Source of the DNA: Deltaproteobacteria bacterium
GTDB lineage: Bacteria > UBA10199 > 2-02-FULL-44-16 > JAAZCA01
Length of the DNA: 43,020 nt
Reading direction: 5' to 3'
Assembly: GCA_018645265.1 (NCBI GenBank)
Contig: JABGOS010000060.1
Coordinates: 1 to 43,020 of the forward strand
Both the position numbers and the translations under genes were made by a program. Positions within the stretch are counted from its first letter, which is position 1; each line of letters opens with the position of its first letter. Shown here piece by piece: positions 25,076 through 39,455 of the stretch. The notes under the pieces were generated by a model that was not told the origin of the DNA, did not search any database, and was given only the letters and a program-made list of their open reading frames with translations.

Positions 25076-25098
25076 TGCCGATGGCTTAGTTTAAAGAA

Positions 25099-25135
25099 AA
25101 AACCCCCGAGATTGAATATCGATCCCGGGGGTTTT
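25099..25135. terminator. Bidirectional intrinsic terminator
   Basis: AAAACCCCCG (25099-25108) and CGGGGGTTTT (25126-25135) are perfect complements around a 17-nt loop. With A and T tracts at the ends it works as an intrinsic terminator in both directions. It lies between the convergent transporter (+) and lipoprotein (-) genes. Confidence 0.93.
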
Positions 25136-25153
25136 GTTGTATTTAATGGTTCT

Positions 25154-26611
25154 CTATTGATTTACTGCCTCTAAACCCAATAGATGTGCTTCTTCGGTGG
25201 AAAGCTCGGTGAATTCATTTTCGTTAGCCATATCGATCTGTCCAACGATTATTTCATTGGTATCCATGTTCTTTCCATCGAATATCAGTATATCGTCGAC
25301 TACTACCATATTGTATACCTTGATATTATCTTCTAGAAGCGATTCGCTGGATCCGCTATTACTTAATGCCATCTTGATGAGTACATTTACTCCATCGTCA
25401 TCCTCGCCGGCTATGTATAGAACGTCTTCAGCAAGGCGAAAGAATTTGACTGCGGATAGCGTGGTGTCGACAAATTCCGGAATCTCGTTTGAGAATACCT
25501 TTGCTATCTGACGTCCGCCATATACTTGATCCTTAACGCCGTGCATAAGTGCGTATACCGAGCCATCACTCGCTTTCTGCCACTCATGGGTTATTGCACC
25601 GCTGTATAGGTAGCCATCGTCATCCTCCAGCCAGAAGCTGCTGTCATCACCCAAGGGAAAGCGGTGGTTGAGTTCTCCAAATGAGAGTGTATCAAACGTT
25701 ACATCGTAGAGACCGAGGTTTGAGGAGTCGAAGCTGCCAGCTGCCAAGATAGTATCATCATCGGCTAGGGTAAAGCTGTAGACACTATCAAATGGTGTGT
25801 CGACCATAGATTTATTGCTCAATATTCGATAGAGTTGTGTTGTAAGTGCTTCGGTTTCTTCATCTGTGGATTCATTTACGTTGATTAATGTTGATCCATC
25901 GTTCGCAACCAGGTATTCCCTTACGTACTCGTAAGTTATATCGTCATCTATCAGTGCTTCATTTGTTCCTAGTTCGATGCTCCACCTATAAACATTGTGT
26001 CCTTCCATTCCGACGTGACCAAATATGTAATATATATTTCCATCCTGATCGAACTGGACCGGCTGGACTACGTTGTCATAGTCGACGTAACTCTGGGTTT
26101 CTTCATCAAATTCTGAATGAACCGTAGTGGAGACGAATTCACCGAGGTATGTTAGATCCGAATCGATGCATATTACGCCATCGCTATCGATGCTGCCCCT
26201 GAAGAAGTAGCAGTCGGTATTATCTATACTGACAGGGCTATCCAGCATGAAGGCCACTGCACCATTTGGTCCGGTGAACATGTGTGTCACTGAAGGTAGA
26301 GGTGATGTGGTGGAGTTCTTTACAATCTGTCCGCTCGCATCGATGTATGACATAATCTCATGTAACTCTGAACCGGTTACTTTCTTGAAGTTGCTGCTGC
26401 TTGATGTGGAACTCTCTGAGGTTACTACCAATGCATCGGCATTGCTCATGTCGAAGGCAATTGAGTTCCCATCAGCGTTTACCGGATTCTGCGGATCTGT
26501 TGGGAGATCGCTGGGATTTGATACCTCAGTTCCGGTGTTTGCGCACCCGATTAAGGACGATGCAAATATTACCAAAAACAATAATAGAACACTTCTTTTA
26601 TGAATTATCAC
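25154..26611 (-). CDS. Large acidic lipoprotein, probable beta-propeller
   Basis: 485-aa exported lipoprotein of unknown function. The signal peptide has basic residues HKR, a hydrophobic core and lipobox LIGC (Cys23). The mature part is rich in Asp, Glu and Ser and begins with a low-complexity linker. Repeated short blocks such as VQFDQDGNIYYIFG, YLVANDGSTLINV, FTLADDDTILAAG and KASDGSVYALMHG look like the strand-turn repeats of a beta-propeller; this is inference. The acidic Asp-rich loops could bind calcium. GTG at 26611 overlaps the stop of the upstream regulator gene as GTGA and has GGAGG 7 nt before it (a GTG one codon earlier is also possible). It is thus coupled to the TIGR02147-type gene. 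Confidence 0.8.
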   Translation of the reverse strand: MIIHKRSVLLLFLVIFASSLIGCANTGTEVSNPSDLPTDPQNPVNADGNSIAFDMSNADALVVTSESSTSSSSNFKKVTGSELHEIMSYIDASGQIVKNSTTSPLPSVTHMFTGPNGAVAFMLDSPVSIDNTDCYFFRGSIDSDGVICIDSDLTYLGEFVSTTVHSEFDEETQSYVDYDNVVQPVQFDQDGNIYYIFGHVGMEGHNVYRWSIELGTNEALIDDDITYEYVREYLVANDGSTLINVNESTDEETEALTTQLYRILSNKSMVDTPFDSVYSFTLADDDTILAAGSFDSSNLGLYDVTFDTLSFGELNHRFPLGDDSSFWLEDDDGYLYSGAITHEWQKASDGSVYALMHGVKDQVYGGRQIAKVFSNEIPEFVDTTLSAVKFFRLAEDVLYIAGEDDDGVNVLIKMALSNSGSSESLLEDNIKVYNMVVVDDILIFDGKNMDTNEIIVGQIDMANENEFTELSTEEAHLLGLEAVNQ

Positions 26612-27447
26612 CACTTCACCTCCGTTAGATTGAAAAGTTGAAAATTGAACTGATACACCGCATCATGCGCTTCGGCCGAGGACGCAATGGCGTGTATCTC
26701 TTGTCTAAATTTATGGATCTTCTTACGGATCTTTTCGAATGTATCCTGATCTATGGGGAAAGTGACTCCGCTTATATCACGATGTATGCTTTTTGAAACG
26801 TCTATTGATTCCTTGCTCTTTTCTATCATCTCCTTGTGGTAATTTATTACGGCTGAGGAGAATATCTTGGGATCACATACGATACTTTTATCGACTTGTT
26901 TTAATCTCTTATTCTTGTCACGCGTTAAGAAGCCAAGCTCCGTCAGTTTTTCTATAATATTCGTGATCGTATTCGGAGCGAGCCTTGTGCCTAGTGTTTT
27001 ATTGATCCATGCGGGGTCCTCTTTGAAATCATCCAGCATTACGAGTTCCCTTAGAGCTACGTAATACCATTTAGACAGATACTCGTATTGAAATGTGGAG
27101 ATATCTCGTACCTTGGTGCGGTGTTGTATTCTTGTGATTTCATCGAGTGCCTTGCTTCTGTCATTGTTCGTCTTCGCTTGTTCGAAGGATATGAGGGCGT
27201 CCAAGTAGTCCTTTTCCAGTTGTCTCTTGCAGAGCGCTTGAATTATCTTTGCCTTGGCGTTCTTTCCTAGATCTCTTTTGCCATCCATTACGAGCTTGAG
27301 AAAGTTGGGCGAGGAGAATCCACATTTTCTTACGAATACCCTATGCGAGAAGGTGCCTGAAACAGCCTTCTTGGATTTATATAGGTCTTTTAGAAACTTC
27401 CTATAATCGAGATAATCAAAGACGGATGGTTCGTTATCTTTTTTCAT
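26608..27447 (-). CDS. TIGR02147-type regulator-like protein
   Basis: 279-aa cytoplasmic protein matching the TIGR02147 family as I know it from Bdellovibrio and Fibrobacter: SVFDYLDYRKFLKDLYKSKK, then FSHRVFVRKCGFSSPNFLKL and VMDGKRDLGKNAKAKI near the N-terminus, where a helix-turn-helix-like XRE-type region is expected. A second winged-helix-like segment lies around TITNIIEKLTELGFLTRD. The C-terminal FEKIRKKIHKFRQEIHAIA is also typical. The exact biochemical role is not established for the family; a transcriptional regulator is the usual inference. ATG at 27447 follows AAGGA; two further in-frame starts lie upstream. A striking symmetric operator/promoter lies 71 nt upstream (27518-27555). 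Confidence 0.85.
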   Translation of the reverse strand: MKKDNEPSVFDYLDYRKFLKDLYKSKKAVSGTFSHRVFVRKCGFSSPNFLKLVMDGKRDLGKNAKAKIIQALCKRQLEKDYLDALISFEQAKTNNDRSKALDEITRIQHRTKVRDISTFQYEYLSKWYYVALRELVMLDDFKEDPAWINKTLGTRLAPNTITNIIEKLTELGFLTRDKNKRLKQVDKSIVCDPKIFSSAVINYHKEMIEKSKESIDVSKSIHRDISGVTFPIDQDTFEKIRKKIHKFRQEIHAIASSAEAHDAVYQFNFQLFNLTEVKW

Positions 27448-27517
27448 GCTGGATCCTTTCATCACCATAATTCTAAATTAATTATCGTCCGTATTCAACG
27501 CAAAGTTGCTTTGAAAT

Positions 27518-27555
27518 ATTATAAACTGTATTCTAATCTGAATACAGCATATAAT
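27518..27555. promoter_or_regulatory. Symmetric divergent promoter/operator (38-bp inverted repeat)
   Basis: Two 16-nt arms match at 14 of 16 positions around a 6-nt centre. The inner part is a perfect dyad CTGTATTC (27526-27533) and GAATACAG (27540-27547). The outer ends are ATTATA (27518-27523), which is TATAAT on the minus strand, and TATAAT (27550-27555) on the plus strand. Each -10 box has its -35 region (TGTATT at 17-nt spacing, a weak match) inside the dyad, so one bound protein would cover both. Minus-strand output leads to the TIGR02147-type gene and plus-strand output to a micro-ORF at 27625. Further half-sites GTATTC/GAATAC lie at 27491, 27627-27638 and 27659. Confidence 0.65.
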
Positions 27556-27624: not shown

Positions 27625-27651
27625 ATGAATACGTATTCAGTAGCTCATTGA
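27625..27651 (+). CDS. Micro-ORF with strong ribosome-binding site
   Basis: ATG at 27625 with AGGAGGG (27613-27619) at ideal spacing starts an 8-residue reading frame MNTYSVAH, ending in TGA. It lies about 70 nt downstream of the plus-strand TATAAT of the symmetric promoter. A perfect 12-bp palindrome GAATACGTATTC (27627-27638) built from the same half-site as the operator lies inside it. After the stop, the frame runs 13 further codons to a second stop. It could be a leader peptide, a tiny signalling peptide or the decayed start of a gene. Translation is not proven. Confidence 0.35.
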   Translation: MNTYSVAH

Positions 27652-27683
27652 CCAGGGGGTATTCATTCTGCTGATCTTTTGCG

Positions 27684-28175
27684 TTATAGATAGATCTCTT
27701 CGTTTTTGAGTAATCTTCTCTTCAGGGTGATACCACTTGAAAATCCGCCTATAGAGCCATCAGAGGCTATAATGCGATGGCAGGGGATGATGAGAGGTAT
27801 TGGGTTCGCTCCGCAGGCATTGGCAGCGGCTCTATACGCTTTAGGGGAGCCTACAGCAGCTGCAAGCCATGTATAACTTTTAGTTTTTCCAAAAGGAATG
27901 GATTTAATTTTTTGCCAAATACTTCTTTGGAATGTAGTTCCTTCAATGAGTTCAATGGCAATCTTCTCTTTTTCCCCATCAATCAGTGAAGAGATTAGTT
28001 TTGTGTCATTCTTCAGGTGGGTGTCGCTCTCTATCCAATTTATCGATTGTGGTAGAGCCTTCAAGAATGAGGATTTAGATCCACCAAACGACAGTCTGCA
28101 AATGCCTTTAGAAGTCTTAGCAATCCAGATCGGTCCAATTCCCGCCAGATTATTTTTTCCAAAATATCCATTCAT
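27684..28175 (-). CDS. ogt: Methylated-DNA-protein cysteine S-methyltransferase (Ogt type)
   Basis: Suicide repair protein that takes the alkyl group from O6-methylguanine. The active-site motif IIPCHRII carries the acceptor Cys132. The helix-turn-helix region (TTFQRSIWQKIKSIPFGKTK, then YTWLAAAVGSPKAYRAAANA) and the C-terminal GFSSGITLKRRLLKNE are typical. 163 aa from the ATG at 28175; an in-frame ATG at 28259 would add 28 residues with a hydrophobic stretch unlike the family. Neither start has a clear ribosome-binding site. Its 3' end faces the micro-ORF transcript. Confidence 0.92.
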   Translation of the reverse strand: MNGYFGKNNLAGIGPIWIAKTSKGICRLSFGGSKSSFLKALPQSINWIESDTHLKNDTKLISSLIDGEKEKIAIELIEGTTFQRSIWQKIKSIPFGKTKSYTWLAAAVGSPKAYRAAANACGANPIPLIIPCHRIIASDGSIGGFSSGITLKRRLLKNEEIYL

Positions 28176-28453
28176 GATGGATTGTTGATATCTGCATATA
28201 ATGTGTGTGGTCAATCTCTTATATATTATAAATAATATCAACATGTCTATCGATGTCATTAATCAGAGCTTCCCTACAGCGGATAAGTGTCAGATTTCCG
28301 ATATATAAAATGATAAATTTCCCAGTATGAGAGGTGTTGGTATCCATTCCAAAATAATATCTCTATAAATATCAGCATGATACATGATTCAAAAAACTCC
28401 AATCATGGCATGAATTCTGCATTCCTAGGGGTGGGAAGCAAGGGGGTATGGTT
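28176..28453. other. AT-rich intergenic gap between divergent genes
   Basis: This gap separates ogt (-) from the next plus-strand gene. It is AT-rich and should hold promoters for both. I see no coding frame with a ribosome-binding site, no RNA gene and no strong repeat. AGGGGG at 28441-28446 is the ribosome-binding site of the downstream gene. Confidence 0.4.
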
Positions 28454-39121: not shown

Positions 39122-39137
39122 GTGTCCGACACCTTTT
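39120..39137. repeat. GTGTCCGACAC palindrome (copy 2), terminator-like
   Basis: AAGTGTCCGACACCTTTT begins within the nagZ stop codon. GTGTC and GACAC are inverted around one C. It ends with four T. It shares its core with copy 1 (1834-1852, central base G in place of C) and copy 3 (39150-39172). Confidence 0.7.
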
Positions 39138-39149
39138 CGCCATTTCTCC

Positions 39150-39172
39150 AAAAAAGTGTCCGACACCTTTTT
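39150..39172. repeat. GTGTCCGACAC palindrome (copy 3), terminator-like
   Basis: The same 18-nt sequence as copy 2 (at 39154-39171), 34 nt further on, extended on both sides to an A6 lead and a T5 tail. As A and T tracts flank the palindrome it can form a hairpin on either strand. Copies 2 and 3 are a tandem pair. Confidence 0.7.
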
Positions 39173-39455
39173 GGGGTGGGGAGTATATTCCCACGTATGC
39201 CGTGATATGTTGGGACCTGCTCTCCCCTGACATACCATCTCAAATAATGAAAACAAATAATATGCCTGTAATATCATATAGTTAGAGTGGGTATGTGGCT
39301 TTCTTGGTCGCATATTCCAAATCTGGCCTATCGATTGCATTAATACAGAGCGAGGCATCACCCGAAGATAGGCAGATATGGGTATAAAGCCCATGATATT
39401 AGTAGGTTACGAGATGTTAAACGGTGCTTGATGGGTGGTGAGAGGAGTCCTAAGG
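39173..39455. other. Intergenic stretch between nagZ and the next gene
   Basis: With the two palindromes this gap is 334 nt. The remainder contains no coding frame with a good ribosome-binding site, no tRNA and no insertion sequence. A short hairpin TGGG/CCCA around TATAAAG lies near 39380, and AGAGGAG at 39441-39447 is the ribosome-binding site of the next gene. Promoter elements are probably here, but none stands out. Confidence 0.4.

Follow-up and report, generated by a model that had tools for sequence, protein, structure and literature searches.

A short dyad, GTATTC-N6-GAATAC (27528–27545), precedes a TIGR02147-type regulator gene in a 43,020-nucleotide stretch of DNA from a Deltaproteobacteria bacterium, the whole of which we refer to here as the window. 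The protein encoded by the adjacent gene, a TIGR02147-family regulator, probably has its main binding site at this dyad and would activate its own operon from a class I position. GTATTC/GAATAC half-sites spaced one helical turn apart (10–12 bp start to start) constitute a family-wide promoter element of TIGR02147 genes, and the most likely role of the dyad is in autoregulation of the regulator's promoter, in place of the two-way promoter described in an earlier note on this DNA. Activation is the favoured sign of this control.

The dyad forms the core of a 38 bp inverted repeat at 27518–27555 that reads ATTATAAACTGTATTC-TAATCT-GAATACAGCATATAAT, in which 14 of the 16 arm positions match. The inner arms (CTGTATTC and GAATACAG) are perfect over 8 bp and are separated by a 6 bp spacer, and a TATAAT is present at each outer end, one per strand; the repeat thus matches its earlier description. 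The repeat is the joint best in the window, tied with a hairpin at 25097–25137 (see below), and such repeats occur at a mean of 0.06 per dinucleotide-shuffled whole window (one or more in 4 of 100 shuffles) and in 8 of 2000 shuffles of the 242 bp local region. Neither the repeat nor its core is assigned to a strand, and the core is the conserved, operator-like part; conservation in relatives does not include the outer TATAATs, whose presence here is plausibly due to chance. Six half-sites are located within 175 bp in the window. In addition to the two in the dyad there is a GAATAC on the minus strand at 27491–27496, which lies inside the promoter between the -35 region and the -10 box, a distal pair of abutting half-sites (GAATACGTATTC, 27627–27638) situated 87–93 bp upstream of the dyad, and a further distal GTATTC, again without an assigned strand, at 27659–27664.

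The regulator gene (26608–27468, minus strand) likely has its true start at the ATG at 27447, which follows an AAAGGA. Its product matches the TIGR02147 (Fsuc_second) HMM with 241.6 bits against a cut-off of 50, over residues 14–283 of 286, and DUF4423 (PF14394) with 141.6 bits, confirming that the gene behind the repeat codes for a TIGR02147-type regulator. Five TIGR02147 genes are present in its own genome (2.24 Mb in 161 contigs), and the genomes scanned contain up to ~15 TIGR02147/DUF4423 matches each. A structural model of the full-length protein (pLDDT 84, pTM 0.52) has an N-terminal helix-turn-helix at residues 22–79 and a winged-helix-like region at 127–191, with weak matches to MarR, SlyA, and MntR folds. 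When the N-terminal domain is modelled alone (pLDDT 91, pTM 0.82), its top 50 fold matches are nearly all helix-turn-helix proteins of the Xre/Cro type, including HigA, C.Esp1396I, and the lambda repressor, each with a non-significant E value of at least 0.27. A sequence search of the PDB with the regulator found no relative. The S-x-N-F-L motif of the recognition helix is almost invariant, in keeping with the nearly invariant half-site.

We collected 110 upstream regions of TIGR02147 homologs from the window's class, and among the 106 used in a 6-mer count GAATAC/GTATTC was the most enriched 6-mer with no motif supplied, being found in 51 regions versus 12.8 expected. Among loci taken from GTDB genomes GAATAC again ranks first, in 11 of 13 from the Bdellovibrionota and 7 of 12 from the Myxococcota, and the TIGR02147 loci of the Desulfobacterota contain pairs of GTATTC and GAATAC. 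In the Fibrobacterota the top 6-mer is GTATAC (5 of 17), and the half-sites there are GTATAC at most. Proteins of the locus set spanning other phyla had been preselected by an S[PS]NFL or YQxNFQ motif. Strict GTATTC-N4-6-GAATAC dyads are located upstream of 30 of the 154 non-redundant TIGR02147 genes from outside the Fibrobacterota versus 0.02 expected, and half-site pairs upstream of 52 of them versus 0.08 expected, counts that include related paralogs, which are not independent, and that thus overstate the significance. The strict dyads come from the window's class, the Bdellovibrionota, the Myxococcota, and the Desulfobacterota; the other 102 of the 154 genes, about two thirds, have no exact half-site pair. 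This recurrence upstream of relatives across phyla bears out the idea of an operator-like element linked to TIGR02147 genes.

The half-sites are paired 10–11 bp start to start and are mostly inverted (GTATTC..GAATAC), and some pairs are direct or include GTATAC, such that the half-site is best written as approximately GWATWC. At 62 loci outside the Fibrobacterota the half-site density is 8.5 per kb between -200 and 0 versus mostly 0.1–0.8 per kb at distances greater than 1 kb, and 19 dyads of these loci fall in the single -200 to 0 bin. The earlier note had also proposed looking for the same dyad in front of other TIGR02147 genes of this genome; both of the dyads with a 3–7 bp spacer (2 of 2) are upstream of such genes, one in the window (contig C35) and the other in contig C119. 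A search of the genome for GWATWC-N5-GWATWC returned only chance matches of the GAATTC type. Distal half-sites are found 72–77 bp (~7 turns) upstream of the dyad in 15 of 42 cases and form a clear cluster, with no strong overall periodicity in their helical phasing; these, like the pair at 87–93 bp in the window, might add cooperative or looped binding. Six loci (L018, L021, L022, L024, L027, and L065) have just two direct TGTATTCTA-like sites, 73–76 bp apart with an AT-rich spacer, and contain no close pair.

The regulator promoter is predicted from a -10-like box, GATAAT (27481–27486, minus strand), which is exactly 41 nt downstream of the dyad, with transcription expected to start near 27474. 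The leader would thus be ~27 nt with translation from the ATG at 27447. Among 49 genes a (T/G)ATAAT starts 41 nt after the dyad in 15, with nearby offsets occupied 0–3 times, corresponding to a Poisson P of ~7e-14 before relatedness is allowed for, and the members with this spacing are drawn from several phyla. The window contains the composite pattern of GTATTC-N4-6-GAATAC, 40–43 nt, and GATAAT upstream of the regulator gene (27545–27481, minus strand). The -35 region has GCAACTTT (27502–27509, minus strand), a poor match to TTGACA that is kept in the closest ortholog and is recurrent in relatives. In that ortholog (L006, whose protein is 50% identical) the dyad, GCAACTTTGC, and GATAAT are all kept gaplessly, and the flanking TATAATs are lost. 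At most loci the -10 and the start are free of half-sites.

If transcription starts ~7 nt after the box, then the fixed 41 nt separation places the centre of the dyad near -62, which would be a class I activator position, a placement that depends on the predicted box and start. At class I activator-dependent promoters of the CRP type the site is centred near -61.5, and activators that depend on the helix face tolerate shifts of about one turn; in some of the targets described below the -10-like box is 51 or 53 nt after the dyad, about one turn later. In the scheme that we favour, a regulator dimer would read the two half-sites via its N-terminal Xre-like helix-turn-helix and, bound at the class I position, would recruit RNA polymerase to the poor -35, such that the operon of regulator and lipoprotein genes activates itself. 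Elsewhere in the genome the same site precedes other genes for lipoproteins and secreted proteins, which may be controlled in the same way.

A sigma-28-type promoter was also considered, as the regions upstream of TIGR02147 genes are enriched in GCCGATAA, which resembles the FliA -10. This was rejected; CGATAAT is likewise frequent in front of control genes (12 of 120, versus 17 of 106 TIGR02147 genes), where in the window's class it is no rarer than TATAAT, and it therefore looks like an ordinary -10 of the class.

The two mirror-image promoters of the earlier note would use the TATAATs at 27518–27523 (minus strand) and 27550–27555 (plus strand), both to be switched off by a dimer bound to the dyad, and the two hexamers are indeed perfect and symmetric in this one sequence. 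The arrangement does not extend to relatives, as the closest ortholog lacks both, and among related promoters a TATAAT at the corresponding offset of 4 occurs in 2 of 53 on the gene side and in 4 of 56 on the divergent side, both within background, with no peak at any offset on the divergent side. The -35 regions are poor, with a TGTATT 17 bp upstream of either outer TATAAT that matches TTGACA at 2 of 6 positions, and the plus side has no gene before the convergent ogt (27684–28259), only an 8-codon frame. Because offset 4 is rarely occupied, no peak is seen on the divergent side, and the plus side lacks a gene, the symmetric divergent promoter is unsupported, and we regard it as very improbable. 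The start sites near 27511 or 27562 that it implied give way to the predicted start near 27474, taken from the conserved -10-like box, although the outer TATAAT promoters could conceivably have weak activity. The 8-codon frame itself (MNTYSVAH, 27626–27652, plus strand) follows a good ribosome-binding site, AGGAGG, and its first codons coincide with the distal half-sites; nothing links the frame to this system, and the overlap is probably a coincidence.

With the dyad taken as a site for regulator binding upstream of a single promoter, the sign of control and the identity of the protein have to be considered. Xre-type proteins are commonly autorepressors, and a TIGR02147 protein bound to the dyad and the distal half-sites could repress its own operon, either through DNA looping or by keeping upstream activators away. 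The distal half-sites 72–77 bp upstream in 15 of 42 cases, the general suitability of a site upstream of the promoter for looping, and the half-site within the promoter at 27491–27496, one of six in 175 bp, are all consistent with this. Set against it, the dyad stays outside the promoter, separated from the -10 by a constant 41 nt or by about one turn more, and precedes a poor -35, which is the geometry of an activator. Half-sites also seldom overlap the -10 or the start across loci, and we consider repression unlikely and activation the preferred reading. Chance alone would be least surprising for the outer TATAATs in this AT-rich spacer, and is hardly credible for the palindrome as a whole, given 30 strict dyads versus 0.02 expected, the fixed 41 nt spacing, and the conservation of the core, which rules out chance for the core itself.

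It is also quite improbable that the dyad is the site of another regulator, for example one of the CRP type, that controls the TIGR02147 and lipoprotein genes. The suggestion arises from TTHB099, a CRP-family protein of Thermus thermophilus that binds TGTATTCTAGAATACA (PMC7662524), and this site, which has the TGTATTC/GAATACA half-site letters of the window dyad, is the only one we found to share them. It differs in having a 2 bp spacer, compared with 6 bp in the window and 4–6 bp in relatives, where the halves may be inverted or direct, and TTHB099 belongs to an unrelated protein family with no link to TIGR02147 genes. The element described here tracks TIGR02147 genes through several phyla and precedes the regulator's own gene. 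The parallel with class I CRP promoters is one of layout, with a symmetric site ~62 bp upstream of the inferred start, a poor -35, and alternatives shifted by about one turn; the TIGR02147 protein is predicted to have an Xre-like helix-turn-helix and a winged helix without the CRP fold, and the half-sites are GWATWC-like with a 4–6 bp spacer in inverted or direct orientation. Xre/Cro-CI autoregulators such as the HigA antitoxin, C.Esp1396I, and the lambda repressor share the predicted N-terminal fold and a palindromic operator before their own gene, whereas the TIGR02147 protein is predicted to have an extra C-terminal winged-helix-like domain, its operator is at a putative class I position, and its partner gene encodes a lipoprotein rather than a toxin or a restriction enzyme.

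This partner gene in the window (25154–26614, minus strand) overlaps the regulator stop codon by 7 bp and is predicted to be in the regulator's operon; in its product the lipid-attachment cysteine is followed by ANTGTEVSNP (CANTGTEVSNP). Most TIGR02147 genes are directly followed by a lipoprotein gene, which typically overlaps the stop codon and whose product has a G-T-[ED]-[TV]-G-N-P-like sequence at its mature N-terminus. An adjacent downstream frame is present at 103 of 105 loci, and of the 103, 67 scored as lipoprotein-like and 38 match a stricter motif, with many near variants; a separate, crude count of signal peptides was too lenient for statistical use. The motif is present in all five phyla sampled (including L005–L034 and L145–L224), and GTETGNP or TETGNP was not found in the literature searched. 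The Cys-x-GT[ED][TV]GNP-like motif could be a sorting or interaction signal. We tentatively raise the possibility that TIGR02147 regulators and their overlapping GTETGNP-motif lipoproteins form a widespread and undescribed envelope-regulation module, in which the lipoprotein or its export state would feed back on the regulator, which through GTATTC-N-GAATAC would control a conserved surface-lipoprotein regulon (PF09826 beta-propeller proteins and others) in at least three phyla.

In 46 genomes of the window's class the composite GTATTCN4-6GAATACN40-43GATAAT is matched 11 times, compared with none for a reversed-pattern control, and these matches are upstream of TIGR02147 genes (7 of 11) or of lipoprotein or secreted-protein genes (4 of 11); nine class genomes lack TIGR02147, too few on their own to demonstrate dependence of the composite on the regulator. 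When 385 genomes were scanned, the 339 that do not belong to the class added only two matches, and one of these falls within a long open frame. With a degenerate -10, six sites were found in 48 genomes mostly from other phyla, including two repeats that belong to the class genome behind L150, and the small number outside the class implies that the spacing or the -10 letters vary there. More intergenic dyads in the class are upstream of genes with lipoprotein or secretion signals, several with a -10-like box at 41–42 or 51–53 nt; sixteen other class dyads are inside genes and are probably there by chance. Genes for PF09826 beta-propeller lipoproteins have an upstream dyad in the window's class (L229, L253, and L254), the Bdellovibrionota (L175 and L192), and the Desulfobacterota (L176), and further targets encode an M4-peptidase lipoprotein (L242) and a Big_5 lipoprotein (L225).

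One genome (G015, contigs C4 and C18; L247 and L248) contains five identical GTATTCAAAGAATAC sites with a 3 bp spacer, and the two that were measured, both before secreted-protein genes, have a GATAAT 53 nt downstream; these sites possibly represent a variant regulon. In the window's own genome, a GTATACCATGGTATAC with a CGATAAT downstream at approximately the conserved spacing (G000:C152:44516-44577, L289) is located before an unrelated frame of at least 337 codons, and this is a candidate further target.

The dyad element appears to be previously undescribed, and the operator, regulon, and partner gene likewise appear to be new for TIGR02147 in the literature searched; the type of mechanism, a one-component regulator and its operator, is already known. 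TIGR02147 is not named in that literature, which was mostly without subscription papers, and the single mention of DUF4423 comes from a table of Bdellovibrio proteins. The earlier statement that DNA sites of this family are undescribed thus holds for what was searched, where we found no site, regulon, or solved structure. TIGR02147/DUF4423 proteins are numerous yet scarcely named in this literature, and the element supplies the family with a predicted DNA site, a promoter geometry, a putative lipoprotein regulon, and a conserved partner gene. Among the groups with this element are several that contain predatory or little-studied bacteria, in which the control of surface lipoproteins is poorly understood.

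Two other repeats in the window may be noted. The hairpin at 25097–25137 is strong and symmetric (CCCCCGAGATTGAATATCGATCCCGGGGG), is flanked by A and T tracts, and lies between convergent genes, where it is likely a two-way terminator. The inverted repeats at 39124–39177 have GTGTCCGACACC as their building block and are flanked by A/T runs; they are possibly a REP-like mobile repeat.
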